A DNA stretch of 42,147 nt from a virus. Made by a program: the position numbers and the translations under genes. Below the pieces are notes generated by a model. It was not told the origin of the DNA. It worked only from the letters and a program-made list of their open reading frames with translations, and did no database searches. Shown here in pieces: positions 5,384 to 36,332 of the stretch (positions are counted from its first letter, which is position 1; each line of letters begins with the position of its first letter). The stretch is from positions 1 to 42,147 of the IMG/VR virus record IMGVR_UViG_3300011113_000734. The stretch is one strand, 5' to 3'.

Positions 5384-6301
5384 CTACATAAGTAAAGACG
5401 TGACTTGTCGAGAGAGAAATGGGTGCGTCTTTTCGGTCCAAACTTCAAATGACATACCTTTGTTAGATGCGAAGATGCTAGCAGCTTCAAATTTCGCGAC
5501 GTTCTTTGGATCCAATAAGTGACAATTGGGTTTGAATTCTATGAGAATCTTTCGGCCATCACTGTATTCAATTAAGCAATCGACAACATAATGACGGATT
5601 TTTCCATCAAAGTTGTATTCGATTGTGAGAGGTTCCATAGTATACGAAGAGATAGAATCATCAGCTTCCATGAATAGAACTGCGTTCAGCTCGAACATTG
5701 ACCGATAGTAGACATGTTTGTTTGACTTTGTTGGGTTTTCATAGTATCCGTGCACTCGCGTTGCCTTTGTGAGCATTCCACTCTTGACACACTCAGCTTG
5801 TCTTTGACTTTGCTTTGCTCTATTCTCTTCATTAGACCAATATGACTTCATGTTTTGAGCTATCTTGTCTTTATGAGACTCAGACTTTGATCGGCCCGTT
5901 AACGCGTCTGAAATCTTCTGTGCTCTTTCTGATGTGTTCATCTTCTGTATGATCGCCGCGATCCGCGGATCTTCTTTAGTCAATCCCGTGCACCAACCCT
6001 TGATCTCACCGTTCTTCCACATCTCTCTGCGAGTCTCGATGCTCTTCTCTCTAGCTGTTATATTATTCCCCCAATTGTTGTTGATTCTAGCGACATGTCC
6101 CCAGGCATATTCAGAGTATCCTTTGCTCAGTCCGTGAAATTTTACTGATTCTCCGCAACCGCACTTACATGCGGGCTTAGAGCCTTCTAGGACTACGCTG
6201 ACATAAAGATCTTCACTTCCCATGCCGTGCTTTTTTGATGCATGGATTCTGAGAGAATTGATTGTTTCGACTTGAAAATCACAGTTAGGGCACTTAAGCA
6301 T
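5384..6301 (-). CDS. Free-standing homing endonuclease, zinc finger plus PD-(D/E)xK type (copy 1)
   Basis: A 305-residue protein. Residues 1-26 form a C2H2-like zinc finger (C4, C7, H20, H25). CKCGCG at 45-50 is a second possible metal site. Residues about 130-160 (TGRSKSESHKDKIAQN) resemble NUMOD3-type DNA-binding repeats of phage homing endonucleases. The C-terminal domain has a PD-(D/E)xK, TnsA-like core: E204 (SMFELNAV), D241 (VVDCLIEY) and E255-x-K257 (LIEFKP). This is a nuclease that should cut intron-less or insert-less alleles to spread its own gene. It sits immediately downstream of the tail tube gene. Its ribosome site GGAGG lies inside the 3' arm of the hairpin at 6307-6331, which should limit translation from long transcripts. 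A related protein is at 24667-25494. Confidence 0.8.
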   Translation of the reverse strand: MLKCPNCDFQVETINSLRIHASKKHGMGSEDLYVSVVLEGSKPACKCGCGESVKFHGLSKGYSEYAWGHVARINNNWGNNITAREKSIETRREMWKNGEIKGWCTGLTKEDPRIAAIIQKMNTSERAQKISDALTGRSKSESHKDKIAQNMKSYWSNEENRAKQSQRQAECVKSGMLTKATRVHGYYENPTKSNKHVYYRSMFELNAVLFMEADDSISSYTMEPLTIEYNFDGKIRHYVVDCLIEYSDGRKILIEFKPNCHLLDPKNVAKFEAASIFASNKGMSFEVWTEKTHPFLSRQVTSLLM

Positions 6302-7048: not shown

Positions 7049-10000
7049 TCAGGACTGAATGTTGTTGGACACCACGAAGTCGAGGCTGACGAACTCGATG
7101 CTCTTCGTGGGTTGCACGAAGATCTTTCCGCGGAGTGTGTTGTTGAGGATGTCGTCCTGAGTCGTTGTAGATGAATCGATGACCACCTTGAATCTCTCGA
7201 GTCCTGCGAGTGCCTGAATTCTCTGGAGACGGGGTGTGACCGCTGCAGAGAAACGAGCGAGTGTTGCTTCTCGGTTGGGCTCGAAGATGATGGTCTGAGC
7301 GATGTCTCTCACCTGACGACGGATCTCGATGAGGAGTCTTCTCACGTTGACTCTGTCGAGTGCCGAAGCAGCGACTTGCAGTGTCTTCTGGCCCCAGACC
7401 ACGAGCCCTGAAGCGGGATTGGTTCCGCTTCTTGGCGCACCCGGGAAAGCGACCAGAGGATTGATGCTGTTGTCATAGAGGGAATCTAGATCGTTCTGGC
7501 TAAGCTTCACGCGTGCTTCAAGAGCATCTTGCGGTAGAGCACCGCGTGTGAAACCGGCCGGGGCGAACCAGGGATGACCCACAGCGTCGTTGAGAGAGAG
7601 AGCTCCGAGAACCACGACCGACGGTGGCACGAAGAGGTTGATGCCCTTCGGATCACTGTAGAGAACGTCTGGGAAGTAAGCTGCAGCGAAGGAGCTGTCC
7701 ACAGAGCGATCTCTAAAGGTGGTGATTGAGTTCGTCACTGAGGGTTGATCATTCTCGTCTCTCACGTTGTCGCCATTTTCATCTTGATGTTCGATGTCCA
7801 TGATGAACAGCGCGTCGAATCTCTCCTCAGTGGCTTGAATTGCCGTGTCAGTGACGAGCGGCTCTCTAATGCCAGGGATTGCGAGAAGCTGAATATCCAC
7901 GTTGACTGTGTTCTTCATGATCTCGAGAGCCTTGAGGTATGAGGAGACGCTGGGTCCTTCATTCAAGCCGCGACCGAGTCCTGATGTCATGTCAGCGACG
8001 ACTGCAAGGTTTGTAATCTCAGACTCATTCTCGTCGAAGATATTGACACCATTGAAGCCACCCTGCATGATTGCTGTGAACTTAGCATAACGCTTGTTGT
8101 CTGCAAGATCGTCAACCTTAAAGGGTCTTGTCTTGGCAGAGTCAGTAGCACCGATGCTGTCAGAGAGGTAACCGCCGCCTGTAGGAGCGCCGCTTCTCAC
8201 GTAGACTGCCTTTGACCACTTCTCAGGATCAGCATTTCCTGTTGAACCTGTCACCACCTGAATGTTCTCCAGAGTGAACACGTTATTACAGAATCTGTCT
8301 GAGTCGAGTATACCGTTGGCTGCAGTGTCAGCTTGACCCACGTTGCTGCCTGTCACGAATTTTGCCTCGCCCACAACGAATTGTGGGAAGTACTTCGCAA
8401 AAGACTCAATGCTCTTGTTCTTTAGAACAGATCCATTTCTCTTAACGAGCGTCTCAGGATGCTCGAATTGAACGCCCCAGTAGAATCCCTTCTCAACTTG
8501 TTCCTTGACTGACCATTCTTCACCTGTTGTTATCTTGGCTCTAAATGGTAGCGGAGGTGTGACTGAGTTCTTGAGGTAGCTTCCAGTTCCTACACTGTAG
8601 ACCTGTGACATAATGTCCGCCACGGCCTTTGGAGTCACTGTAGAGAGCGGTGCTGAACCAGATGTAACCAAGTGGTCAACGCCTCTGAAGCCCATCGGCA
8701 ATGCGAGTGGATCGACAAAACCGTTCTCAATGTCAGGATTGACTTCTACGCGAACGTAGTTAGACTTGTTTGAGTAGTTGCCCTCGATAACAAGCTTCTG
8801 TGAAGAAAGTTCTCTGTCAAAGTCGTAGTAAGCATGAAGATCACCAATGACCTTTGCAATGTATCTGTCAGACGAAGGATCAAGTGTGACGCCTGTGAAT
8901 TTCTCGTTCACTAGAACCTTCTTGTCGAGATCTCTATCATCCCAGAGACGTAGCATCACATCAAATGTACCGTACTTATTAAGAGGATCATTTGACTTGT
9001 TAATGTTCTCAATCGAAATCTTAATCTTGTCAGCAACAGAGCTTCCATCATCAAGAGCATGGAATTTAAAGAGATTAACTGCCTCACCGCCGAATTTCTG
9101 CGATATAAACCAAGGAGTGACTGCGTGAGCGAACCTATCTCTGAAGTTTTCGTAGTTAGGAACGGTTGTGCTGCCCACGTTTCTAGCTGTTGAACCAGAT
9201 ATGATAAATGCTGATGGTTCATAACCACCAATTGGTCCTGAACCTGATGCAGCATTAATAACGCCTGAGCCTGTCAAAACAGCAAGTGAACCATGAATAT
9301 CCCAGTGAGCGTAAAGATAATGGCCTGCCTTTTGAAGCTTAAGTGGGTCTGTGTTAAAGACATCGTAGAAGTAATTGTTTGAATTCACATCAAATGATGC
9401 GGTAATTACGTTAGGATAAGATGCATCAGATCCTTTGTGTCCATTAAGAATTAAAACAAATTCTTGCTTGGCCGTGCTGTTCTGTGAAAGAACAACAGTT
9501 CCCAAAGAAGTTCCTGCAGAATTTGTTTCTGTTGCAACAAGCGCCGCAGAAGGACCATCAGAAGAAAGTCCAGATCCTGGAATCGAAGAAGACAGTCTCA
9601 TTATGACACCGCTTGGTGCCATGAGTACGCCTCTAATGATTGGAATGGCTGTTGTAGAAGTCTGTATGCCAGCCTCGCTAAATAGCTTTGAACCGGCAGA
9701 CTCTGACATGAAACATCCTAAGAAGTAAGTTCTTCCTGGAGGTCCACCTGCATTTGCATAAGCATTGGCACCAAGTGCATCTAAGTTTGATGCTTGATCA
9801 CTGGGTTGCTGCTCACCTACTGTGAAACCTGCGCTTGTGACGTCACCTGCAGCATTTCTCTTCTTTCCGTCACCAACACCTAAAACTCTTAAGTAAGTGA
9901 CTGCCTGTGCATTTCTAAGCCATTCACGAACTGCCAGTGGACCAAATTTCTTTCCATCTGTTTCACCAAACTTAGCAGTCCAATCTGATAGATTGCCTAC

Positions 10001-10141
10001 TGTCACTGGTACGAATGCCGGACCTTTTAGTGACGTTCCAATAATGCCAGCAGGAATACCAATCGGTTCCTGTGTAGTTGGCCCCGTGAGGTCAATCTCT
10101 CTAGCTGTTACGCCTGCGCTTCCAAACTTTAGTTTTGCCAT
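7049..10141 (-). CDS. gp18: Tail sheath protein, paralogue A (gp18-like)
   Basis: A 1030-residue tail sheath protein, much longer than T4 gp18 (659 aa). The N-terminus has the sheath hallmark (AREIDLTGPTTQEPIGIPAG, then GTSLKGPAFVPV). The conserved C-terminal domain contains HPWFAPAGFTRGAL, LYDNSINPLVAFPG, GQKTLQVAASALDRVNVRRL and a final strand KSIEFVSLDFVV. The long central part is probably surface insertion domains rich in Ser, Gly and Asn. Sheath proteins assemble around the tube and contract at infection. It lies 47 bases downstream of a second, equally large sheath gene with which it aligns along its length. The C-terminal third is visibly more GC-rich than the N-terminal part. Ribosome site GGAG, start at 10141. 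Confidence 0.93.
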   Translation of the reverse strand: MAKLKFGSAGVTAREIDLTGPTTQEPIGIPAGIIGTSLKGPAFVPVTVGNLSDWTAKFGETDGKKFGPLAVREWLRNAQAVTYLRVLGVGDGKKRNAAGDVTSAGFTVGEQQPSDQASNLDALGANAYANAGGPPGRTYFLGCFMSESAGSKLFSEAGIQTSTTAIPIIRGVLMAPSGVIMRLSSSIPGSGLSSDGPSAALVATETNSAGTSLGTVVLSQNSTAKQEFVLILNGHKGSDASYPNVITASFDVNSNNYFYDVFNTDPLKLQKAGHYLYAHWDIHGSLAVLTGSGVINAASGSGPIGGYEPSAFIISGSTARNVGSTTVPNYENFRDRFAHAVTPWFISQKFGGEAVNLFKFHALDDGSSVADKIKISIENINKSNDPLNKYGTFDVMLRLWDDRDLDKKVLVNEKFTGVTLDPSSDRYIAKVIGDLHAYYDFDRELSSQKLVIEGNYSNKSNYVRVEVNPDIENGFVDPLALPMGFRGVDHLVTSGSAPLSTVTPKAVADIMSQVYSVGTGSYLKNSVTPPLPFRAKITTGEEWSVKEQVEKGFYWGVQFEHPETLVKRNGSVLKNKSIESFAKYFPQFVVGEAKFVTGSNVGQADTAANGILDSDRFCNNVFTLENIQVVTGSTGNADPEKWSKAVYVRSGAPTGGGYLSDSIGATDSAKTRPFKVDDLADNKRYAKFTAIMQGGFNGVNIFDENESEITNLAVVADMTSGLGRGLNEGPSVSSYLKALEIMKNTVNVDIQLLAIPGIREPLVTDTAIQATEERFDALFIMDIEHQDENGDNVRDENDQPSVTNSITTFRDRSVDSSFAAAYFPDVLYSDPKGINLFVPPSVVVLGALSLNDAVGHPWFAPAGFTRGALPQDALEARVKLSQNDLDSLYDNSINPLVAFPGAPRSGTNPASGLVVWGQKTLQVAASALDRVNVRRLLIEIRRQVRDIAQTIIFEPNREATLARFSAAVTPRLQRIQALAGLERFKVVIDSSTTTQDDILNNTLRGKIFVQPTKSIEFVSLDFVVSNNIQS

Positions 10142-10188: not shown

Positions 10189-13100
10189 TCACACGAACTG
10201 AACCCCACTATTTGTGACGATAAAGTCGATTGCGATGAATTCAACAACTCTTGTTGGAACAACGACTATTCTTCCATTGAGTCTGTTAAGATCAACATCT
10301 TCTTGTGTGTTGTTTGTTTCGTTCATGACAACCTGGAAACCTTCAATGCCTGCTTGAACTTGGATGAGACCAAGCTGGAATGAGGTATCTGCCACGAATT
10401 TATTTCTAACTGCTGGTGTATTTTGCTCGAAGACAATTCTCTTCGCGATGTCAATAATCACACGCTTTATCTCAAGCATGAGTCTACGAACATTTACTCT
10501 GTCAAGAGCAGACTTGTTGATCTGTAGAGTCTTCTGACCGTAGACAACGAATCCCAATCTTGGGAATGTCGCTATGGGGTTGATTCTTGACTCATAAAGT
10601 CTATCTCTGTCAGAGACGTTTAGACGAACTGCAACGTTTGTGACAAAGTCTAAGGCGGCTCGGTTGAAGCCTGCGGGTGCAAACCATGGGTAAGACACTC
10701 TGTCGTTAAATCCGAGAGCACCAAGAGCTGCGACTGATGCAGGTACTTTGACTCTTCTTCTATTGGTTTCATCATCAATGTAGACGTCCGGGAAGTATGT
10801 GGCAACATAGTTGTTGTCTATGCTTCTTGCGTCAAGTTCATTGCAAACATAATTGATGTTTGGCTTAGCCGTAGAGTCATCGTACAGTCTATTGCCGCTA
10901 TCATCATAAGACGGTATGTCCATAACATGAATTGCAAGACCGTAATCCTTGACTTTTGCCATGGCATTGTCATTGATGTAAGGCTCTCTGATTCCAGGTA
11001 TTGCAAGTATATTATTATTTGCAACTAGAGGATCTGTGCCAATATTAACAGCTGCTAAGTAAGAAGCAACACCATTGTTGTTGACATCTTGACCCGATGG
11101 ATTAGTTGAGAATCCAGAAATTGTGTTGGTCGTAGAAGCACCACCCCCGACGTCGAAAGATACTGACTTATCATTAAGCCTTCGAGCATTTCTCTCTAAG
11201 AAATTAGTACCGTCGAATCCACCATACATGAAGTTTGTGAACTTAGCAAAGGCAGAGAACTTGTTAAAGTCAGACGCAGATCCTGATGCCAGAATTGTCG
11301 CGAGTGACATTCTATTGCGGCCGCCTTCAGAGTAAGTGTACTTTGTGTTGTCAAGTGCAGCATTTCTAATATAAGCTGCTTCTTTCATGTGTGAGTTGAT
11401 AGAGCTAGTTAAGTCGCCGATTGAATCATTGTAAAGAACGACCTTTGACAGTGAGAACTTATTATTATTGAGTGAATCAGCATTAGAACCTGTCACAAGA
11501 GAATCAAGCTTCTCGATACCCACGAACTTAGTGAGTGATGCAAGAAGTTCGTTCTTTTCTTGAACAACATTCGGATTGAGAAGAGAAGTACCTGTAGGTG
11601 AAGATGATGTGCTATCTCTCTCGAACTTAACACCCCAGTAGAGACCTGGCACTGTAACTTCTGAATTGCCCGGTGCTCCAATGAACGAGGGGCTTGTCGG
11701 CATCTCGCCTCTTGTCACCTTAAATCTCATTGGAACAGGAGGAACGTATGAAGATGAAAGATTGGCAAATGAAGTACTGAGCTTTCCTCCCAGGCGTGCA
11801 TTTGCAGAACTTAAAGCTGTAGATGAAACGAGGTTGGGATTTATATTAAGTGCATGAACACCCTTAAATCCAAACGGTAAGCTGTTCTCTGGGACTTCCT
11901 TATTGTCAACCAGCGAATTCATTATAATTCTGACGTATCTTGAACGATTTGCGTATTTGCCAGTTGCAATTAAACGACGTTCTCCGGGCAGAACAGAGTC
12001 AAAGTTGTACTGTACTTTTCTATCGCCGATTAGCTTGGCAACGTAGTTTGGAGAGTCGGGATTTAATGAGCAGTTTGAGAATTGCTCAATGACTTGTGGA
12101 TTTTGGTCAGTATCATCCCAGCTTCTAACTTGAATTGTGAATGTACCATAGCGATCAGCATCATTTGCTGATGCCTTTAAATTTGAGATTGAGATCTTGT
12201 AAAGCTGATTTGCGTACTCTCCATCGTCAATTGCTTCGAAATGGAATAAGTCGTATTCAGTCTTACCGAACGGCTGAGAGATGAAGGTTGTTGTTTTTGG
12301 TGCAGTGAAGCGTGTATTATAAGATCCAAAGACTTCGCGGAATGATTTAGAAGAATCACCTGCGGTTGAAGTATTCGCTGAACCAGAAAGAATACCGACT
12401 CTGCTTTGAGCGCTACCGCTTGCGAATACAATTGATTTATCAACTGCGAAATCGGCATGTAGATAATGTTGCTCTTGGTAAAACTTGTCAGGATCTCTAT
12501 TGAGAATCTTGCCAACGTAATCGCTGTCGGATGGATCAAACGATGCTGTCAAAACCTTGACGCCCGTGACACCGTCTGTCACGGCAAAATCTGCACCCAG
12601 CGAAGAAGAAATAATAAGCTTAAACTTACCAGATATAAGATCAGCATCATCGTTAATTGCTGTCGCAACTGCAAAAGAAGATGCTGCAATGCTTCCGTGA
12701 GAAGCAGTGACCATGATTCTAGATGTGTTAGGGGTCATGATGAGACCGCGTACTAGATTGACATAGGATGAACCTGCGAACGTGTCGTTGTCAGAGAACA
12801 TCGGAGCGGCTGCACCTTCATAAGTTCCTATGTCATGTCTAGCAACAAGGAATTGAACTGCACCCGCGTGTCTATTATCGGTTGTTGCAGTTCCTGCTAA
12901 TACAAATCCTGCCTTTTCAACAACACCATAAGTTGCTGTACTCGTTATGTGCGCAGATGTTGAATTAGCTCCGGCTCCCAAGACTCTAATATAAGAGAGA
13001 GACGATCTATTCTTTAAGAACTCATTGGCAGCATATGGCCCAAATTTGTCTGGGTCTAAGTTACCGAATACCTCAACGTATTCATTGAAGTTAGCAACTG

Positions 13101-13239
13101 TTACCGGAACAAATGCCGGACCTTTATTTGCAGTGCCAATGATCAATGCAGGTACGCCTGTTGGACCTGTAACTGCTGGTGCTGAAAGATCTATCTCGCG
13201 CTCATAAAAATTTGGCGACTTAAAAGTCTGCTCTGACAT
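10189..13239 (-). CDS. gp18: Tail sheath protein, paralogue B (gp18-like)
   Basis: A 1016-residue paralogue of the next gene. Shared landmarks are EREIDLSAPAVTGPTGVPA and GPAFVPVTVANFNEYVEVFG at the N-terminus, then YPWFAPAGFNRAAL, LYESRINPIATFP, GQKTLQINKSALDRVNVRRL and VEFIAIDFIV at the C-terminus. The central region (about residues 130-480) is more divergent between the two. A strong AAGGAG site precedes the ATG at 13239. Two adjacent full-length sheath genes imply either a mixed sheath or specialised copies. Base composition here is more AT-rich than in the downstream half of paralogue A. The protein is certainly sheath-like; which copy forms the main sheath cannot be told from sequence. 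Confidence 0.92.
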   Translation of the reverse strand: MSEQTFKSPNFYEREIDLSAPAVTGPTGVPALIIGTANKGPAFVPVTVANFNEYVEVFGNLDPDKFGPYAANEFLKNRSSLSYIRVLGAGANSTSAHITSTATYGVVEKAGFVLAGTATTDNRHAGAVQFLVARHDIGTYEGAAAPMFSDNDTFAGSSYVNLVRGLIMTPNTSRIMVTASHGSIAASSFAVATAINDDADLISGKFKLIISSSLGADFAVTDGVTGVKVLTASFDPSDSDYVGKILNRDPDKFYQEQHYLHADFAVDKSIVFASGSAQSRVGILSGSANTSTAGDSSKSFREVFGSYNTRFTAPKTTTFISQPFGKTEYDLFHFEAIDDGEYANQLYKISISNLKASANDADRYGTFTIQVRSWDDTDQNPQVIEQFSNCSLNPDSPNYVAKLIGDRKVQYNFDSVLPGERRLIATGKYANRSRYVRIIMNSLVDNKEVPENSLPFGFKGVHALNINPNLVSSTALSSANARLGGKLSTSFANLSSSYVPPVPMRFKVTRGEMPTSPSFIGAPGNSEVTVPGLYWGVKFERDSTSSSPTGTSLLNPNVVQEKNELLASLTKFVGIEKLDSLVTGSNADSLNNNKFSLSKVVLYNDSIGDLTSSINSHMKEAAYIRNAALDNTKYTYSEGGRNRMSLATILASGSASDFNKFSAFAKFTNFMYGGFDGTNFLERNARRLNDKSVSFDVGGGASTTNTISGFSTNPSGQDVNNNGVASYLAAVNIGTDPLVANNNILAIPGIREPYINDNAMAKVKDYGLAIHVMDIPSYDDSGNRLYDDSTAKPNINYVCNELDARSIDNNYVATYFPDVYIDDETNRRRVKVPASVAALGALGFNDRVSYPWFAPAGFNRAALDFVTNVAVRLNVSDRDRLYESRINPIATFPRLGFVVYGQKTLQINKSALDRVNVRRLMLEIKRVIIDIAKRIVFEQNTPAVRNKFVADTSFQLGLIQVQAGIEGFQVVMNETNNTQEDVDLNRLNGRIVVVPTRVVEFIAIDFIVTNSGVQFV

Positions 13240-18761: not shown

Positions 18762-20363
18762 TCACTTTATATTAATTAATCCAGAAACAATGCCTGGCGA
18801 CACACCATATTCGGCAGTCTTGTTAACGTCGCCCTTCGCGGCAGCATATACAATCGCAGCAGAAGCAAACGCTGAACATTGTTCTGATGTCTTGCTAACG
18901 TCGTCAGCTCCGGTAGCTGGATTAAAACCGACTGCGTTCTTTCCGCCTATCTTATTCGCATAGACATGACCGAACCATCCGTTCTTTGTGTTTCCTTTGG
19001 GATCCATGACATATACGAAGTTACAGGCATCCGGAGTAGCATCGGGCCATGTTGAACCTTGCAGCGGTGTGTGTGGTGTATCGCCGTATGCAACGAATAC
19101 TGTACTCTGATCTAGCTTCTCTGTTGGACTTTCAGGGTCCACCTGCTGTGACAGGTAGTTATAGAAGCCATTCAGGACCTTGCCTAAATGCTTTGTAGTA
19201 TTCCTGCCTTGGTTCATCAAGGTCATATTATCAAATGTAACGTGAGGATCCGTAAACGTCGTGTCACTAGTCGGACCGGGTGAGAGAGCTACAATTGCCG
19301 TCTTGGATAGACCGAGCGCGAATGCTTTAGCAACCACGATCAGAGTTCTTCCAAACTCTTCGATTCCTCTCCTCTGAGCAGCTGACATGTACATAGAAGA
19401 AGCATTAAGTCCATCGATCATCTCTTGAATTCCAAAATCAGCAAGATCTTGACTGGTTGGTGTCAGCTGGGATGCAAAATTAAGACCGATAATCCTTGCA
19501 GCATTCTTGGTGATCTGCATCTGAGGAATCCAGGAAGATCTGCCAGAAGATTTTCTTAAACCTGCTAAGGCCTTATAGTAGACTTCAAAAAGATCTTGAT
19601 CAATTTTGCTTGCTAGCGTGAATTGGCTGGCTGAGCTATTAAAGAGGTCGATCATGCCCGCAGATGATGGAACTGTAGCAACTTCTGGTGCACCGGGTGC
19701 TCTTCCATATTTGACAGGATCAATACCAAGAACTGGTACTATTGCTGATGACCCTGCTGCGCCAAGTGATGCTAATGCTGCCTGCATTGAAGCATTTCCA
19801 GATAGGGTAACCTGCGAGATAGGAAACTCGGTGTGCGTCTCATCTTTGCCAGACATAAAAGCTGACACTGGGTATTTCGGAACGCCTAAAGCATGATCAA
19901 ACCAAGGCGCATCAGGACCGTAAAAGAAAGATCTATCTCCTCCTGCCCATCCTTTTACGCCCATTGGAAGCGAAGGCATTGGATTACCTTTACCCCACAC
20001 ATAAGTTCCTCGATATCCATTAGCAGGATTATAACCGTACTGAGACGTGTAAAGATAGGAAGAGAATCCACCAAAGTTGGAAGATAGCCCAGGAACATTG
20101 GCATTTTGGCATGCTTTGAAACCGACATCAGCGACAGGCCACAGTTCTTGAAACCAGGCTTGTGAACCGTTTGGGGCCGGCACTAATAAAGAACGACCGT
20201 ATGTAGAACCTGCCGCCTCGGCCAGACCATATCCGCCCTCGTCAGCAAGAAAATTTAGTAACTTGCTTCTCTCAATGCCTACAGCAGCTGCTGCAACTGT
20301 GCACATCTTAAGAAACGTTCGACGTCTTTCATCTCTAAGTTCTTTGAGTTTCCAATTAGCCAT
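18762..20363 (-). CDS. Tat-exported protein, probably DUF1501/DUF1552-like
   Basis: A 533-residue protein with a twin-arginine signal: RRRTFLK at residues 13-19 followed by an Ala-rich hydrophobic segment (MCTVAAAAVGI). Near residue 430, STVFVAYGDTPHTP followed by an Asp/Gly region resembles the late metal-site area of DUF1501 (sulfatase/phosphatase-like fold) proteins. The match is loose, so the family is uncertain. The gene is third in a run with a DUF1588/DUF1585-type cytochrome lipoprotein, and DUF1501 or DUF1552 proteins are habitual neighbours of such cytochromes in Myxococcota and Planctomycetota. It would be exported folded, possibly with a metal or redox partner. Clearly not a virion-type protein. 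AAGGGT ribosome site 18 bases after the upstream stop. Confidence 0.65.
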   Translation of the reverse strand: MANWKLKELRDERRRTFLKMCTVAAAAVGIERSKLLNFLADEGGYGLAEAAGSTYGRSLLVPAPNGSQAWFQELWPVADVGFKACQNANVPGLSSNFGGFSSYLYTSQYGYNPANGYRGTYVWGKGNPMPSLPMGVKGWAGGDRSFFYGPDAPWFDHALGVPKYPVSAFMSGKDETHTEFPISQVTLSGNASMQAALASLGAAGSSAIVPVLGIDPVKYGRAPGAPEVATVPSSAGMIDLFNSSASQFTLASKIDQDLFEVYYKALAGLRKSSGRSSWIPQMQITKNAARIIGLNFASQLTPTSQDLADFGIQEMIDGLNASSMYMSAAQRRGIEEFGRTLIVVAKAFALGLSKTAIVALSPGPTSDTTFTDPHVTFDNMTLMNQGRNTTKHLGKVLNGFYNYLSQQVDPESPTEKLDQSTVFVAYGDTPHTPLQGSTWPDATPDACNFVYVMDPKGNTKNGWFGHVYANKIGGKNAVGFNPATGADDVSKTSEQCSAFASAAIVYAAAKGDVNKTAEYGVSPGIVSGLINIK

Positions 20364-20380
20364 TCTAGATACCCTTTAGT

Positions 20381-21397
20381 TTATTGACAAGAATGAGTAG
20401 CACTGAGAAGAACGGAGACAGCAATTATCTTCTTCTTCATGAGATCTGACGAGTCACCCTGTTTTGCCTTTTGAATCAAAAGATTGCACAACAGCATGTG
20501 ATCGTCTGTGGCTGGCATGCCTATTAAACAGCTCACAGACTCTTCAACACAGCTTCCGTCATTAGCGAACATCGGCATATTTTTACCATTTAAGGTGCAG
20601 GCCGGAGCTTTGGAAGAATCGCCAATATTTGCGATGATCTGTGGCGCAGCCTGAATAAATATGTCCATTAACTTCATAGCAGAGGCTGTAGTATGCTCTT
20701 CTTTTTCTCCAAGGCGTGAATCAAGCTTCGGAACACCAAGGGCATCTTTGCCTGTGAAATACAAGAAACCAGCTGTAAAGGGCTTTGATACACAGTATCC
20801 ATCGGCAGCATCGGGAGAATTGTTACCGACGTCTAAACAGCCTCTGTTGACCTGGTTCATCTTGTCATCTTGATTACAGAAGCAAGACTCATTTGAAGGA
20901 CAGATGGGATCATTTGTGCCATTTGCGTCGGTGATTGCCATCTCGCAGGCTGAGCCGCTTCCGCCAAAAATTGAACCAAGGGTTTGTGTCACTCCAAATA
21001 TTGACGCCTGCGTAGTTCTGACGTCGGAGACATTGCCGGGTGGAATTGCAACACCTCTCGCTCTTAGCAGATTACCAATCTGGGTGTAGGTAAGCTTATG
21101 GCAACCGTGCAAACGTGATACTATCTCATCTAAATTTGGTGTATTATACTGAGGAAGATCTTCCATGCCAGACCCAGAAGAAGTTGCAGCGGGTTGATCT
21201 ACGGGCGCACCTCCGGCACCCGATGTTGCAACAGTTGATGAAGTTGAAGAAACAGCTGAAACTGTGACAGAGTCTGTCACGACTATCTCTTCGTCAGGGC
21301 AGTAATTCTCACCAATGTCAGGTGCTGTTGACCCACATGCTGAAGAGAATACGTACGCAGTTAAGAAAACAATGCCCGGAAGGAACTTTCTCTTCAT
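20381..21397 (-). CDS. Exported lipoprotein of unknown function in the cargo operon
   Basis: A 338-residue lipoprotein. The ATG at 21397 is preferred over one at 21418 because GAGG lies seven bases upstream and a typical signal follows: MKRKFLPGIVFLTAYVFSSAC, with lipobox Cys21. Next is a Ser/Thr/Ala/Gly linker (SSTSSTVATSGAGGAP) like those of myxobacterial surface lipoproteins. The mature part has about a dozen Cys residues, several in close pairs (CFCNQDDK), suggesting disulfides and an extracytoplasmic fold. The start of the domain reads LHGCHKLTYTQIGNLL, and HGCHK contains no CxxCH motif. The start lies one base after the stop of the cytochrome-like gene, implying co-translation. No family is recognised. 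Confidence 0.7.
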   Translation of the reverse strand: MKRKFLPGIVFLTAYVFSSACGSTAPDIGENYCPDEEIVVTDSVTVSAVSSTSSTVATSGAGGAPVDQPAATSSGSGMEDLPQYNTPNLDEIVSRLHGCHKLTYTQIGNLLRARGVAIPPGNVSDVRTTQASIFGVTQTLGSIFGGSGSACEMAITDANGTNDPICPSNESCFCNQDDKMNQVNRGCLDVGNNSPDAADGYCVSKPFTAGFLYFTGKDALGVPKLDSRLGEKEEHTTASAMKLMDIFIQAAPQIIANIGDSSKAPACTLNGKNMPMFANDGSCVEESVSCLIGMPATDDHMLLCNLLIQKAKQGDSSDLMKKKIIAVSVLLSATHSCQ

Positions 21398-21398
21398 T

Positions 21399-22886
21399 TT
21401 AAAACCTCGTGAAATCATCTGACGTTAAAATTGTCCTAAAAACTTTCTTCAAGTTGAATCCGTTAGACTTAAACTGAGAAACTAACTTGGACATGGTGAC
21501 TAATTCTGGGTTCTTGTCTTTGCGATCCGGTAAGCTTACCCAAGAGCGTCCACCGATTTCTGTGATGTCTGCTCTACCCATAGCATAATTCCAAGTTCGC
21601 TTCACAGCACATTCGATCACTTCGTCATCCTTGGACATCTGCTGTCCAAGTTCGTTGATCGTGGAAGCAGATGCAGCAACTTCAACACCGTCGACTTTCA
21701 TAATCTTTTTCCAAGCTGTTGAATTGCTGCCTCCATTTGGACAGGTTGGACCGACGCACAACCAATCGCTCAACTTGGCGCGCGGTGAACCGGTCACAGG
21801 GACAAAGACTGAGTACTCACCTGACGCGGTGAGGGGTTGAAACACGCCGTTTGAGTCGAACTGGCTGAAGAGGGGTGAGCGGTGGTTCCACGTGGCGTGA
21901 CAGTTGGCACACACGTTGCTGCTGTTGTAAGCATGAAAGTCTACACGTCCTCCATTGCAAGTTCCCGCAATCTCATTGACAGGCCATTTATTCTGGTAAC
22001 CGGGAATCGGATTGACACCGCTGCATGGTGCATCTGAAGGCGGTTGATCTGTTGGTTCGCCGCCGGCTTGCTCGTTACCAGAGCGACAGAGAAACGTCTC
22101 GTGAAAGAATCGGTTTCGGCGGAAAGAGAGGTTACCGAAGTACAGGCTCTGCACGCCTGGGTTGGTGAGGATGCCTGAATGGTTTATCCCCGCGGGAAGA
22201 TTGTTGCAGCTACCATCAGTAAAGGAGTTACTTGCAGGATTAAAAGTAGGACATGTATTAGCTTGCTGAACGAGAATGTTGCGCCAATCTTTTTCTTCAT
22301 AGACCACCTTCGCAGCAAAAGTCGGTGCCGTGTCACGATTCGGTTCACCTGCAACAGTAGACGCTCCACCCATCTTGAACGTGTACTTGAAGAACTCCAC
22401 CAGGGTCGCGGCAAATCGAGGATCTGATAACTTCTTATCGATTAGATCTTCGTACTTCACCTTCTGCTGATCAGGTGGTAGATCGCCCAGCTCGTAGACC
22501 TCTGTCAGAGTGGGTAGTTCTCCAATGATGAGCATGCTAGCTGTTCTAAGAGCTTCAGAATAATCTAGCTCTCTCTCGTCAAGCTCTGTCAGCTCAATTT
22601 TTGGTTCATTATTACCTGACCCCGTAGACGTCACGGATGGACCCACAGTGGCGGCCGAGCTTACCTCTTGACCGCCGGTTCCCGTTGATGTAGCAACCGC
22701 AGACGAAACACTTGACGAGGTGGACGAAGTCGTCTTCACAGTGGGCGTTGGACAATCTTCAAACACTGCAGAAGTGTCGCCTGCAAGCTTATAAGGGTTC
22801 GGTCTCTCGCATCCGTAGGACGCGAACAACACTGAGGCGACGACGAGTGCGCACCTCTTGGTTAATCTGCTTTTTGTCGTTACCAT
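21399..22886 (-). CDS. Lipoprotein with one c-type haem motif, DUF1588/DUF1585-like
   Basis: A 495-residue protein with a signal peptide ending at lipobox Cys26 (LFASYGC), then a Ser/Thr/Gly-rich linker (about 45-95) similar to the next gene's. Residues 105-170 look like the start of DUF1592/DUF1549-type proteins. HSGILTNPGVQSLYFGNLSF and RRNRFFHETFLC (about 236-267) match the DUF1588 pattern. VCANCHATW gives a single CxxCH at C326-H330, followed by FSQFDSNGVFQ, the usual Phe-Asp-x-x-Gly block. The C-terminal 75 residues (CAVKRTWNYAMGR, then LVSQFKSNGFNLKKVF and TSDDF) match DUF1585. It is first in the three-gene set. In bacteria these proteins are thought to be exported haem proteins of unknown substrate. 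Not a known phage family. Confidence 0.8.
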   Translation of the reverse strand: MVTTKSRLTKRCALVVASVLFASYGCERPNPYKLAGDTSAVFEDCPTPTVKTTSSTSSSVSSAVATSTGTGGQEVSSAATVGPSVTSTGSGNNEPKIELTELDERELDYSEALRTASMLIIGELPTLTEVYELGDLPPDQQKVKYEDLIDKKLSDPRFAATLVEFFKYTFKMGGASTVAGEPNRDTAPTFAAKVVYEEKDWRNILVQQANTCPTFNPASNSFTDGSCNNLPAGINHSGILTNPGVQSLYFGNLSFRRNRFFHETFLCRSGNEQAGGEPTDQPPSDAPCSGVNPIPGYQNKWPVNEIAGTCNGGRVDFHAYNSSNVCANCHATWNHRSPLFSQFDSNGVFQPLTASGEYSVFVPVTGSPRAKLSDWLCVGPTCPNGGSNSTAWKKIMKVDGVEVAASASTINELGQQMSKDDEVIECAVKRTWNYAMGRADITEIGGRSWVSLPDRKDKNPELVTMSKLVSQFKSNGFNLKKVFRTILTSDDFTRF

Positions 22887-22912
22887 ATAGCCTTATTATA
22901 TCTATGCAGCAT

Positions 22913-22942
22913 ATAGTAACTTAAAGTTTAAAAAAATTACAA
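22913..22942 (-). promoter_or_regulatory. Candidate promoter of the cargo operon
   Basis: On the minus strand TTGTAA (22942-22937) and TACTAT (22918-22913) are 18 bases apart, giving a start about 20 bases ahead of the ATG at 22886. This is a moderate match to a sigma-70 promoter in an AT-rich gap, so the operon may be transcribed on its own. Confidence 0.35.
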
Positions 22943-24666: not shown

Positions 24667-25494
24667 TCAAGACAGCTCTGCATCCTCCGGGGCGAGCATC
24701 ACCACGAACCACCAATTGCGCTTCTCACAGAAAGCCTTCGCGGCGTCCCACTTGGCCTGGTCCACGGCGTCGTGGCGACCCTTCACCTCGTACAGGGTGC
24801 GGTCGTCACGGCCGAAGAAGTCGGGGACGTAAGTCCGAGTGGTGCCGTCGGGGTGGGTGTAGGGAATCTGGATGCCGTGGTTCTTGGTGACGTGGTACTG
24901 GCGAGACACGCAGGCCTGGTAGAACGCTGACTCCCAAGACGAGTGCATGTGCTCCTCCTCGCCGGTCCACGGGCTGATCAGGGTCTCACGCTTGAAGGGA
25001 GCGTGCGGTCCGATCTTGTTGTCAGCCAAGAGCTGCACGGCACGAGCGGAGGCTTCTTGCCGGAGGACGGGTGCGAGGGGCGACTCAGCCCAGAAGCGGT
25101 GGACGGATTCTGTCTGTTTCTTTATTGCCTCAGGAGTTTTTGAAAGAGGATTCATCTTTTTTATTCTCTTTTTTGCTACATCTGGGTGTTTTGACATGAA
25201 TTCTTTCATGTTTACAGAGTTCTTCCTCCCGATCTTCGCCTTCTCTTCTTCAGATTTGATTCTGCCATGTGCGTGATGTCCGTGAATAAATCGGGTAAAA
25301 TCCTTTAAGGCAATATTCCACTTATTTTTGGAACCACATCCACAAGCACAGTGTGGAGCTTGTCCACCGTATTTCCACTTGAGCACGTATTCTTGCGCGT
25401 TGATCTTGTGACATCGAATGTGTCTTAAGACGAACTCTAATGAATCGAATTCAGTATTACACTCTTTACAGACATTGTCAATTTCAGTTAACAT
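24667..25494 (-). CDS. Free-standing homing endonuclease, zinc finger plus PD-(D/E)xK type (copy 2)
   Basis: A 275-residue protein with the same plan as the one at 5384-6301: C2H2-like finger (C9, C12, H25, H29), CACGCG at 49-54, a NUMOD3-like Lys/Ser-rich linker (EEEKAKIGRKNSVNM, then SKTPEAIKKQTESV) and a PD-(D/E)xK core with E188 (SSWESAF), D225 (YVPDFFG) and E236-x-K238 (LYEVKG). Sequence identity to copy 1 looks low outside these motifs. Base composition changes sharply inside the gene: the nuclease half (24667 to about 25100) is GC-rich, while the finger and linker half (about 25140-25494) is AT-rich. This suggests a join of two sources. It lies just after the capsid gene terminator. 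Confidence 0.8.
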   Translation of the reverse strand: MLTEIDNVCKECNTEFDSLEFVLRHIRCHKINAQEYVLKWKYGGQAPHCACGCGSKNKWNIALKDFTRFIHGHHAHGRIKSEEEKAKIGRKNSVNMKEFMSKHPDVAKKRIKKMNPLSKTPEAIKKQTESVHRFWAESPLAPVLRQEASARAVQLLADNKIGPHAPFKRETLISPWTGEEEHMHSSWESAFYQACVSRQYHVTKNHGIQIPYTHPDGTTRTYVPDFFGRDDRTLYEVKGRHDAVDQAKWDAAKAFCEKRNWWFVVMLAPEDAELS

Positions 25495-32293: not shown

Positions 32294-33157
32294 TCACTCC
32301 TTTGAGTCAAGCTCTGTTTTAAGCTTGGAATAAATCATAAATTTTGTGATTATTGTGTCATCAATTTGATCAAATTTTTCAGACATGAGCTCTTGCTTTG
32401 TTTCAATAAGTTTTGCCTTAAGGTGTGGCAAATCTTTTATTTGCTCGATGTAAGCGTTGATGCTAGATGAAAGATCAGATCTAACCTCTTCTAATCTTTG
32501 AACTATCTGAGAATCATCGTTAGATGATGAGGACAGTGCATAAGCCTTGATAATGTTCTTTTGCTGTTCATTTAAAGAGTCTGAATATTTTTCGTTCAGC
32601 TTCTTAGACATGACAGTCATTAGTAAGCGGGATGTTCCAGGCGTCTCTTCAGAGATTGTGTGTTCAGACACAATCTTTTTTGGTGATAGAAGCCATTGAA
32701 CAAGCTGATCTTCATATTCGGCGATCTTAGTGATGTCAGCATCTTCAGAACGCCACTCATTAATTAGCTGTTGTATTGTTGCACACATTCTATATTCATT
32801 GACGTGTTGATCGTAAAAAGAACCGTCATTATTAATAGTATGGTTTATGTTACGAATAAGCAAAGATTTTTCTCTGTCTAATTCTGCAGTATCCATCTTA
32901 ACAGCAGCATCCTTAGCCTCTTTGAGTATTCTTGATGCTACTTGAGGTGATGAAACTGAGGTCTTAATTAGCGCATTTAAAAGGCGAAATTCTCTATAGA
33001 GACTAGTTCCCTTCTTGAAATGACGTCTTAGAATTTTTAAAGCAGCAGCTGATTTTCTTTTGTCATCTTCAACGAGTGACTTAGAAATAGAAGAAACTAA
33101 GAATTCGTAAAGTAGAATTGAGTTTCTTTTCTTGTTGTGGTTCTTGCTCATTCTCAT
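32294..33157 (-). CDS. Unknown helical protein between portal and protease
   Basis: A 287-residue protein from the ATG at 33157 (a GTG one codon earlier overlaps the portal stop). GAGGAG upstream, inside the portal's last codons, points to translational coupling. It is almost all helix: basic N-terminus, then LLYEFLVSSISKSL and several amphipathic helices, no membrane segment. Similar-sized helical genes occur between portal and protease in marine T4-like phages, but I cannot name a family. Position suggests a head assembly role, for example a portal or core partner. Confidence 0.65.
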   Translation of the reverse strand: MRMSKNHNKKRNSILLYEFLVSSISKSLVEDDKRKSAAALKILRRHFKKGTSLYREFRLLNALIKTSVSSPQVASRILKEAKDAAVKMDTAELDREKSLLIRNINHTINNDGSFYDQHVNEYRMCATIQQLINEWRSEDADITKIAEYEDQLVQWLLSPKKIVSEHTISEETPGTSRLLMTVMSKKLNEKYSDSLNEQQKNIIKAYALSSSSNDDSQIVQRLEEVRSDLSSSINAYIEQIKDLPHLKAKLIETKQELMSEKFDQIDDTIITKFMIYSKLKTELDSKE

Positions 33158-36100
33158 CACAGTATCTCCTCGTCGGTCTTATCAGATTCTTGCTCCTCTA
33201 TTTCAATAGACATATCTTCTGATAAAAGTTTATTTGAATTAATAGATCTAGACTGAAAAGCCGGTAGCGAAGCCATCTTTCTCAATGCAGACATAACATC
33301 TGACCCAATTCTTGTCTTAGTTTCTTTTAACGGATTAGATGCAAGGGATCTTAAGAATTTTCCATCAAACGGGTCGGTCATAGCTAAATCTTTTGCATCA
33401 AGCGATGATGCCCAATCAGGCATGTGCAGCTTTGAAGGTCCTGAATGTCTTATTCGTGCTCTGTTATGACGTATTCTATCAATTTGTCGCTGTGCCTTAA
33501 CTGGCATGTCGACGTCTTTTAGCTTGAATTTAATTCCAAACTCTTCGTCATCGTCCGGATCGTCGGCTGAAAGCAGTAGATTTCCTACCTCTTCGTTGTC
33601 AGCAGGATCATCTCCAGCAAAGAGATCTCCTTCTTCTCCGCCCTCTTCACCTCCGGATTCTTCTCCGCCCTCTTCACCTCCGGCTTCAGCTTCGCCTCCG
33701 CCTTCACCGCCGCCAGTTGTGGCCTCGTCTCCGCTTTCCTCTTCAGGTTTAGCATTTTCAATCTCACCATCTATCAGTTTTTCTTTTAGACGCTGATCGT
33801 CAATATCGCGGCATTCTTCTTCACTGAGACCCCAGATCTCTTTTCTAATAAATTCCTTGCTCATTTGACCTTCAGGAGCTGAACCTGCAATTTCAAATTT
33901 TGCTCTCCATAGTTCAAGCTTTTGCTGCTGGGCTATAGTTGAAGGATTCGGTAGACGGAGAACGAAGTTTTGTAAGTCTTCATCATCAAATCCATGAGAA
34001 TATAGATGTATAATTGCGAGCTTGTTTAGCTCAGCGATAATAGTCTTTTGTATTACGGCAATAGTCCTAGAGAAACGTATGTCTTCTTGAGCCAAAGTAG
34101 CCTTTGAACTTAAAGACTCATCGTAGCCAAGATAAGCTTTCGGTACCTTGAGTGCAGAGAATAGTTTCTTTTGAATATAGGCTACATCCTCAACTGCTGC
34201 AGCATTTTGTCCACCAGCTAACGTATCAATTTTAGTACCAGACTCACCGCCGCGGACAGGTATGAAATAATCTTCATCTACAGATAGAGGATTATAACGA
34301 AGATCAACTCGGCCCGTAGACCTATCGACTACCTGACTTGATCTCAAGTTCTTTCTTTGCTCTTCGACGTACATCGGTACGTTTTCAGGAGGAATATTGG
34401 CAACATCAATATAGAAAACTCGGCGTTCCGGAGCGCGGACAACGCGATAAACCAGCATTGCGTCTTCAATTAGAATGAGTTGACGCCAGATGCGTCTAGC
34501 AGCTTCTATGATCGATGATCCGTACGGCAAGAAAGAATCGTTACCGAGAAGCCTAAAATGAATGACTTCCCAATTTTCGAGAGTTTTATTACCCATGGTG
34601 ACCCACTTATAACGAACAGCCATCGGATCGTCTGGGTCGTAATTTTCTTCCCTAATAATCTCATTGACGGGAATTGGAAAGACATTTATGACACCATGAT
34701 CAGGCGAGACGTCACAGTAGAGGAAGAAATCACCATACTTAACAAGGTTTCTAACCCACGATCTTAGATTAAATTCAACATTTAATATATCGTAGAATAG
34801 CTCCTCTAATATTTCCTTAATTTTCTCGTTGTCAGAGTAGACATGTAGCACTCTACCCTTTTCATCTTGTGCACAAGTCTCGTCTGCGTATATGTCAAGC
34901 GCACTCGCAATCTCAGGTGTGTTGTGAGAAATGACTGTGTCTGTAGCGAAGTTCTTATAGCCGTCGACAGTTAGATCATACAGTGGGATCACACCATGAT
35001 AGTCGATAGACGCAACTTTAAGATTTTCGTAGTTATGAGAAAATTCAGTGTAGTTTTTATAACCTTGTTCGGCAAGTCGCTTAGAAAGAATTGTATCTGT
35101 CGTGCCCAAAGACTGAATTAGATCCTTCTTTGACATGCCTTTAGAAAAAATTGAGCATATTCTGTCAAAGGTAACTGAATGATTATATCGAGGATTATTC
35201 TCGCCTTGGTTGCTCCATCCTGCGTTGTGCCAATCTGGGTTGTATGCTTTGGCGAATGTTTGGAAGTCTTGATATCCGTGTTTTCGTAGTTTACGTTTGA
35301 TTACATTGGGATCGGTATCAAGAACTTCGCACATCTTTCGAGAATTGAAGTTTGTTCTTTCGGCAACTTCTAAAATTCGACCGAATGTGATGTCCTTCCG
35401 CTCGGCAGGATTGTTCTCGGACATGAACTTAGAATGATTGATCTTGAACTGCTGAATCCAGTCAGAATTTTGTTCAGACCATTTAGCACCGTTGAGAATC
35501 TCTGCATGAAGCTTTTGATGAGCTTCGCTTGTCATCACCAGGAGATTTTCAGGTCTATTGTCGTATTTGATGAAATTTTTGTGGTGAACGACTTCGTCGT
35601 TTGTCAAAGGAGAACCTTTTATCATTTCTCCGACGACTCGATGCTCAGATGCCCAGCCATTCATCTTCGACCGTCGGTCCATTGTGTAGATCCAACGATA
35701 ACCTTCACCTTCTTCTTTGCAGCCGTTAAAAAGATCCCGACGATAGAATGGCATCATTGCATCGCCGGCTTTAAGATCTTCAATCTTGCAGAAGGTTCCA
35801 TCGCGCTTCATGAGTCGATGGTTAGGAGTTCCGATGATCTTCTGCCCGTTGTCGAAAGTAACTATGTAAGCGTGATCGGTTCGGGTTTGTCGAGCTTGTT
35901 TACCCCAAGCTGGAATAATTCTTCCTAAGTTATGATCATAAGAATAGACTAGGAATGTTTTGTCTGGGTCTGCAGAGCATTCTTCAGCAAGATCTTTAAT
36001 TTTCTTATAACCGTCAGGTACTGCGATTAGAGTATCTCCATGAAGACAGTACTCCATTTCAACGAAGTCCTGATACCTCATCATTCTCTCTGAGAGATTG

Positions 36101-36288
36101 TAAGCGTTAGCTGTGATTGTTGTGTATGTAGGAGCTACGCTCTTTTGAAAGAGTAAAGTGCCGCTGCTCTTAGCAGAATCTGGCAAAGCAACGGTAGTAT
36201 CTAAACTTCGGATCTTTCTTTTGACGACTGGGCCGCTTTTAAAGAGCCTCGTTAATTTTTGAAAAAGTGTTTGTTGATTCTTTGCCAT
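33157..36288 (-). CDS. gp20: Portal protein (gp20-like) interrupted by an intein
   Basis: A 1043-residue precursor from the ATG at 36288; AGGAGG upstream decides the start (a TTG at 36303 is unlikely). The intein covers residues 81-456, leaving a spliced portal of about 667 residues (T4 gp20: 524). Extein landmarks: YQDFVEMEY before the intein, TPEIASALDIYADETC after it, then RNLVKYGDFFLYCDV, RLLGNDSFLPYGSSIIE, PERRVFYIDVANIP, LPRLPNPS-type region (FVLRLPNPSTIAQQQ) and FIRKEIWGLSEEE. The C-terminus carries a low-complexity Gly/Glu segment (around 820-860) and an Asp-rich part not in T4. The portal is the 12-fold ring for DNA entry. Candidate promoter at 36333-36361. Confidence 0.94.
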   Translation of the reverse strand: MAKNQQTLFQKLTRLFKSGPVVKRKIRSLDTTVALPDSAKSSGTLLFQKSVAPTYTTITANAYNLSERMMRYQDFVEMEYCLHGDTLIAVPDGYKKIKDLAEECSADPDKTFLVYSYDHNLGRIIPAWGKQARQTRTDHAYIVTFDNGQKIIGTPNHRLMKRDGTFCKIEDLKAGDAMMPFYRRDLFNGCKEEGEGYRWIYTMDRRSKMNGWASEHRVVGEMIKGSPLTNDEVVHHKNFIKYDNRPENLLVMTSEAHQKLHAEILNGAKWSEQNSDWIQQFKINHSKFMSENNPAERKDITFGRILEVAERTNFNSRKMCEVLDTDPNVIKRKLRKHGYQDFQTFAKAYNPDWHNAGWSNQGENNPRYNHSVTFDRICSIFSKGMSKKDLIQSLGTTDTILSKRLAEQGYKNYTEFSHNYENLKVASIDYHGVIPLYDLTVDGYKNFATDTVISHNTPEIASALDIYADETCAQDEKGRVLHVYSDNEKIKEILEELFYDILNVEFNLRSWVRNLVKYGDFFLYCDVSPDHGVINVFPIPVNEIIREENYDPDDPMAVRYKWVTMGNKTLENWEVIHFRLLGNDSFLPYGSSIIEAARRIWRQLILIEDAMLVYRVVRAPERRVFYIDVANIPPENVPMYVEEQRKNLRSSQVVDRSTGRVDLRYNPLSVDEDYFIPVRGGESGTKIDTLAGGQNAAAVEDVAYIQKKLFSALKVPKAYLGYDESLSSKATLAQEDIRFSRTIAVIQKTIIAELNKLAIIHLYSHGFDDEDLQNFVLRLPNPSTIAQQQKLELWRAKFEIAGSAPEGQMSKEFIRKEIWGLSEEECRDIDDQRLKEKLIDGEIENAKPEEESGDEATTGGGEGGGEAEAGGEEGGEESGGEEGGEEGDLFAGDDPADNEEVGNLLLSADDPDDDEEFGIKFKLKDVDMPVKAQRQIDRIRHNRARIRHSGPSKLHMPDWASSLDAKDLAMTDPFDGKFLRSLASNPLKETKTRIGSDVMSALRKMASLPAFQSRSINSNKLLSEDMSIEIEEQESDKTDEEIL
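34921..36048 (-). other. Intein with HNH homing endonuclease in the portal gene
   Basis: A 376-residue in-frame insertion. Splicing motifs: Cys1 in CLHGDTLIAV (block A), GTPNHRL (block B), YDLTVDGYKNFATD (block F), VISHN then Thr as +1 residue (block G: His-Asn, with Thr as the C-extein nucleophile). HHKNFIKYDNRPENLLVM is an HNH (HNH_3-type) nuclease core. After it come two related ~50-residue units (TFGRILEVAERTN... and TFDRICSIFSKGM..., each with a RxLxxxGY..F element), probably HTH DNA-binding repeats. It should splice out of the portal precursor. Confidence 0.93.
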
Positions 36289-36332
36289 ATTATGCCTCCT
36301 CAATACGAAGTCGGCGTTTCACCTTGCGGGAT

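Follow-up and report, generated by a model that had tools for sequence, protein, structure and literature searches.

A T4-type phage genome carries three adjacent genes (A, B and C) for two lipoproteins and a Tat-exported protein, and phylogenetic placement shows this trio to be host-derived, captured as a unit from Polyangia-type (Myxococcota) bacteria. The window analysed here is the whole IMG/VR virus record IMGVR_UViG_3300011113_000734 (42,147 bases, positions 1 to 42,147). Its T4-type gene set comprises the Gp23 capsid protein, the Gp20 portal, terminase, an S77 prohead protease, baseplate and sheath. A genuine T4-type genome therefore lies behind the trio (window Gp23, E 2e-77), and Gp23 is also present in the large trio carriers. 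The trio is on the minus strand, the same as its neighbours, and separates the capsid region from the tail genes. Its genes and their export and cofactor motifs are as follows.

18762-20363, minus strand: gene C, a 533-aa Tat-exported protein, remotely DUF1501/DUF1552-like
20304-20324, minus strand: twin-arginine motif RRTFLKM of C (residues 14-20), recognised by motif and TIGR01409
20381-21397, minus strand: gene B, a second lipoprotein, Cys-rich, with no Pfam family; the longest ORF runs from 21418 (345 aa)
21335-21337, minus strand: lipobox cysteine codon of B (C28, long form), invariant in the phage B alignment
21399-22886, minus strand: gene A, a 495-aa lipoprotein of PSCyt2-PSCyt3-PSD2 (DUF1549/DUF1588/DUF1585) type with one CxxCH
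21897-21911, minus strand: CxxCH motif of A (CANCH, residues 326-330), invariant in phage and host copies
22809-22811, minus strand: lipobox cysteine codon of A (C26), invariant in the phage A alignment

An earlier note on this DNA had placed three exported-protein ORFs on the minus strand at 18762-22886, and we confirmed them there, including the 17 bases between B and C. The 1-base spacing it gave for A and B holds when the ATG at 21397, which immediately follows the TAA of A, is taken as the start of B; the longest B ORF instead begins within A (start 21418), which makes the two genes overlap. The lipoboxes it had proposed are borne out by cysteines that are invariant in phage copies (Cys26 in 16 aligned A proteins; Cys28 in 19 aligned B proteins). 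The Tat assignment of C stands as well, since the window protein exceeds the NCBIfam TIGR01409 cut-off (18.0 bits versus 16.7) and RRxFLKM is invariant in 19 aligned phage copies, with RRxFL[KR] in 24 of 25 phage C proteins. The CxxCH motif noted in A was present in all 21 complete phage A proteins.

PSCyt and PSD domains (DUF1549, DUF1588 and DUF1585) are Planctomycete-specific cytochrome domains, and A resembles the proteins that carry them in having an N-terminal DUF1549, a CxxCH-bearing DUF1588 and a C-terminal DUF1585 in the right order. The CxxCH falls in the DUF1588 region, C326, C329 and H330 are invariant, and the motif makes A a putative haem c protein. The DUF1588/DUF1585 assignment made earlier held in relatives, which exceed the Pfam cut-offs, but not in the window copy itself. 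Window A fell narrowly below the gathering score for DUF1585 (25.1 bits against 25.8; E 1.5e-5) and also below it for DUF1549 (18.5 against 29.8 bits) and DUF1588 (14.7 against 27 bits), whereas a host A (L056; DUF1549 44 bits, DUF1585 29.4 bits) and another phage A (L152; DUF1549 29.9 bits, DUF1588 28.8 bits) scored above it. Unlike PSCyt/PSD proteins, A is a lipoprotein, is partnered with B in a three-gene operon and is phage-borne, with the window copy below the cut-offs. Searches of A against INPHARED phages gave no match, those against the sequences of solved structures gave no significant match, and its predicted fold was too poor for use (pLDDT 62). B matched no Pfam family; about a dozen cysteines are conserved in the phage B alignment, which would fit an oxidising extracytoplasmic location.

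C is the best conserved member of the trio, with a mean column identity of 88% in the phage alignments. Its earlier placement with DUF1501/DUF1552 survives only as remote similarity over parts of the protein. Neither PF07394 nor PF07586 was found among 26 diverse members, and in Pfam only Tat models matched. With hhalign, the C-terminal core gave a partial alignment to the DUF1501 profile (E 2.3e-5, Prob 76%), and the N-terminus aligned with the DUF1552 profile mostly in the Tat signal region (E 6.5e-6, Prob 85%). C is like DUF1501/DUF1552 (HXXSHH) proteins in its Tat signal and partial profile matches, but unlike them in having no Pfam match to either family and alignments that are only partial. 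With an AlphaFold model of C (pLDDT 73), the top of the Foldseek PDB list consisted of alkaline phosphatase/sulfatase superfamily members, at scores that were not significant (best E 0.17). Among viral models in BFVD, its best structural match was a DUF1501 protein from an uncultured Caudovirales phage (A0A6J5M742), which aligned over the full length but weakly (E 0.35, 11% identity) and may be related to the canonical DUF1501 pair described below. H177, D372, H374, D428 and D441 do not vary among diverse members, and this His/Asp set is compatible with a metal site. C had no significant match in sequence searches against solved structures and no match among INPHARED phages and plasmids.

The trio is widespread among related phages. 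Two scans of IMG/VR found A, C or both in about 33 distinct contigs, and one more came from a capsid scan, giving about 34 other contigs that carry the trio, the longest of 211 kb. Where contigs are long enough, the common gene order is capsid - (endonuclease) - A - B - C - g18069. A chimeric contig was rejected because about 34 independent contigs share an identical trio order. That the trio is an assembly artefact or misbinned cellular DNA has nothing in its favour beyond the low prior for such cargo, and we give it next to no credence: the same junctions, flanked by phage genes on either side, recur in about 34 contigs drawn from many samples, the phage copies form their own clade, and the GC3 of phage trios (0.38-0.51) lies within the range of the window's genes, compared with about 0.77-0.92 for the operon on host contigs.

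The cellular relatives found for the trio come from a single phylum. A scan of GTDB species genomes with C found ten loci, all in MAGs titled Polyangiaceae, Polyangia, Myxococcales or Deltaproteobacteria, the Deltaproteobacteria-titled MAG being Myxococcota in the taxonomy listing. Five of these contigs hold a complete A-B-C operon, 44-76% identical to the phage copy, and no other window genes were found in them. The contigs with the cellular operon have a GC content of 0.63-0.71 and chromosomal neighbours, including a divergent upstream ClpA/B-type ATPase, NADH:quinone oxidoreductase, GH35 and multicopper oxidase genes. Within the phylum the operon is restricted, occurring in 30 of 98 genomes of the family and 11 of 284 of the phylum. 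No capsid gene was found in the genomes of the 98 relatives; misbinned phage contigs as a source of the cellular copies are ruled out by these capsid-free genomes and the high-GC chromosomal contigs.

Host genomes hold several copies of the operon, which fall into class I (window-like) and class II (shorter and more widespread). In a tree of 63 C proteins, the 24 phage class I sequences form one clade (100/96) inside cellular class I, and the nearest cellular C to this clade is a copy from genome G003 (91/79). In agreement, class I phages form one clade in quick trees of both A and B. The placement of phage proteins within cellular clades upholds the host-derived origin proposed earlier, and the titles of the cellular MAGs agree with the Myxococcota-type lineage it named. 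From this gene origin, we infer that the phages infect a Polyangia-type host group. No partial-window DNA match was found in 290 genomes of the class, so there is no spacer-type host link. In the host class II operons, A is preceded by an additional CxxCH gene (L246:4210-5697, L248:4082-5458 and L250:11078-12376) that was not taken by the phages, and a peroxiredoxin (AhpC/TSA) gene lies next after C in L246 and, by sequence, in L251 too.

Class II was captured as well. L152, a 200-kb phage, has a class II trio at the same site, and two further contigs bring the phage class II carriers to three. The C of L152 is 54-59% identical to host class II but about 35-40% to class I, and phage class II is nested in cellular class II in the B and C trees. 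The L152 capsid protein is 76% identical to that of the window; therefore, related phages separately took two paralogs of one host operon. A single phage origin of both trio classes was rejected for the C proteins (AU test; p 2.6e-38, delta lnL 383). These tree comparisons show that the trio was captured at least twice.

A canonical DUF1501 gene was found in about 13 viral contigs of up to 171 kb. In the examined contigs it is directly preceded by a PSCyt2-PSD1 gene with a CxxCH (DUF1549 E 2e-38, DUF1553 E 2e-22), and the DUF1501 gene of this pair matches its family profile (DUF1501 E 1e-97). One example is:

L253:3149-6110 (contig IMGVR_UViG_3300022074_000021; set L252-L275): canonical PSCyt2-PSD1/DUF1501 pair

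In L253 the pair adjoins gp25- and gp6-like baseplate genes and a tail lysozyme, and Gp23 was present in six of the seven canonical-pair records tested. As the canonical pair is without B, it is the same kind of cargo and not the same operon. Its architecture suggests that it was probably a separate capture.

In the capsid tree, trios are confined to one well-supported clade, in which 10 of 14 members carry them (8 class I, 2 class II, 4 none). Outside this clade, all 17 phages with enough sequence are without a trio near the capsid gene. C was not found in 16 records lacking a complete trio when these were searched over their whole length, although absence from fragmentary records proves little. 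Since 4 of the 14 close phages are without the trio, it is dispensable for the lineage. In trio-less L080, L098, L103 and L139, the site between the capsid gene and g18069 is filled by other small accessory genes and is therefore an accessory-gene site. Such a variable site with other small genes is where host genes might sit by chance as neutral passengers between capsid and tail genes. We consider this very improbable for the trio, which has saturated synonymous sites with low nonsynonymous change, is intact in many divergent contigs and was captured twice in one clade. Indeed, the trio is under purifying selection: in the few unsaturated pairs (synonymous sites being mostly saturated), dN/dS was 0.05 for C, 0.07 for A and 0.13 for B. 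The same-strand position between capsid and tail genes could also mean that the proteins are structural, take part in assembly or decorate the particle. This too is improbable, if slightly less so, given that the export signals of all three are conserved in phages, that chromosomal homologues occur without capsid genes and that close relatives with the same virion genes are without the trio.

Comparison of the carriers pointed to a shared leader in front of A, with these elements in the window:

22895-22900, minus strand: TATAAT box just 5′ of the ATG of A, a candidate promoter element
22930-22936, minus strand: T-tract 5′ of A, which recurs in most trio carriers

In most carriers, a T-tract is followed by a TATWAT-type box that stops a few bases short of the ATG of A. 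This pattern occurred in 12 of 15 listed trios compared with 7 of 406 genes from the window and two large phage genomes, where one of the seven was itself a trio; the motif was defined after inspecting the carrier sequences. The TATAAT of the window sits farther from its T-tract and does not fit the strict pattern. Two DNA patterns for the motif missed the window's element or matched only the opposite strand, and the claim of a leader motif rests on the carrier comparison for this reason. The candidate promoter noted earlier was not matched by a plain sigma-70 scan upstream of A, but gains from the recurrence of the box near the ATG in most carriers. No T4 late promoter (TATAAATA) was found near the trio. 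The candidate leader suggests that the trio is under separate transcriptional control. In the 211-kb phage G007, the leader also precedes a 538-aa gene that is GroEL-like by its N-terminal sequence only (L205:7790-9406) and a 772-aa lipoprotein gene with no Pfam match (L202:16245-18563).

Our best reading, to which we give about an even chance, is that the trio acts as an auxiliary module, rebuilding or boosting a surface complex of the host while the cell is infected. A-B-C would probably be transcribed from their own promoter during infection, and the host Sec/Lgt/Lsp/Lol pathway would deliver both lipoproteins, A and B, to the envelope. A c-type haem may be attached to A at the CxxCH, a step that would require host cytochrome c maturation according to the earlier note. 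C, predicted to be a remote relative of DUF1501 proteins built on an alkaline-phosphatase-like core, would be exported by Tat in folded form. The three proteins would then assemble into one surface complex, sustaining or boosting a nutrient or redox function of the host while host gene expression is shut down. Expression timing, haem attachment and complex formation are predictions from the gene set, and the metabolic role is a guess because PSCyt/DUF1501 proteins have no known function. For Verrucomicrobia, the functions of PSCyt proteins are described as unknown, with carbohydrate metabolism only suggested, and PSCyt genes in cellular genomes usually adjoin particular unknown gene families (PMC5615132). 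Some benefit to the virus is likely, since related viruses separately took a different copy of the operon.

The main rival to an auxiliary module is superinfection exclusion or receptor masking, in which the phage copy would block, dilute or replace a host receptor complex, as exemplified by the phage lipoprotein Llp of T5. Two of the three products are lipoproteins, related phages have alternative paralogs at a single site, which would be expected were the receptor to vary from host to host, and only 10 of the 14 close relatives carry the trio. However, an arms race would usually diversify exposed parts, whereas the whole operon is under strong purifying selection with C the most conserved, and the invariant His/Asp residues of C and the CxxCH of A resemble active or cofactor sites. 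We therefore regard exclusion as unlikely, though deserving of serious consideration.

Planctomycetota, Verrucomicrobiota and Myxococcota are rich in PSCyt and DUF1501 proteins. Like phage auxiliary metabolic genes and other T4-type cargo, the trio is host-derived, under purifying selection and at an accessory genome site. Unlike the usual T4-type cargo, it is an entire operon for several exported proteins that a single phage clade has captured at least twice; to our knowledge, no such operon has been described as phage cargo, and we found no report of PSCyt/DUF1501 operons in phages in the literature covered, which did not extend to subscription journals. The compact, complete and strongly conserved set retained by phages points to A, B and C as a minimal functional unit, and its retention points to a benefit during infection. 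Judged by the origin of its genes, the trio also links a set of uncultured T4-type phages with hosts of Myxococcota type. More tentatively, T4-type phages of different hosts may repeatedly capture whole PSCyt/DUF1501-type export modules as a short-lived, rate-limiting surface system, a generalisation we find possible but would not yet favour. If true, infected cells would have to go on producing the module, a redox or enzyme system at the surface, and the phages would offer a first genetic handle on the large PSCyt/DUF1501 family.

Several other features of the window were observed. The Gp20 portal gene (33157-36303) contains an intein (Intein_splicing E 6.5e-13; HNH_3 E 2e-8). Two TnsA-like endonuclease genes are present (5384-6301 and 24667-25494), the second lying between the capsid gene and the trio. 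Finally, two large sheath-like genes form an adjacent pair (7049-10141 and 10189-13239; 1030 and 1016 aa).
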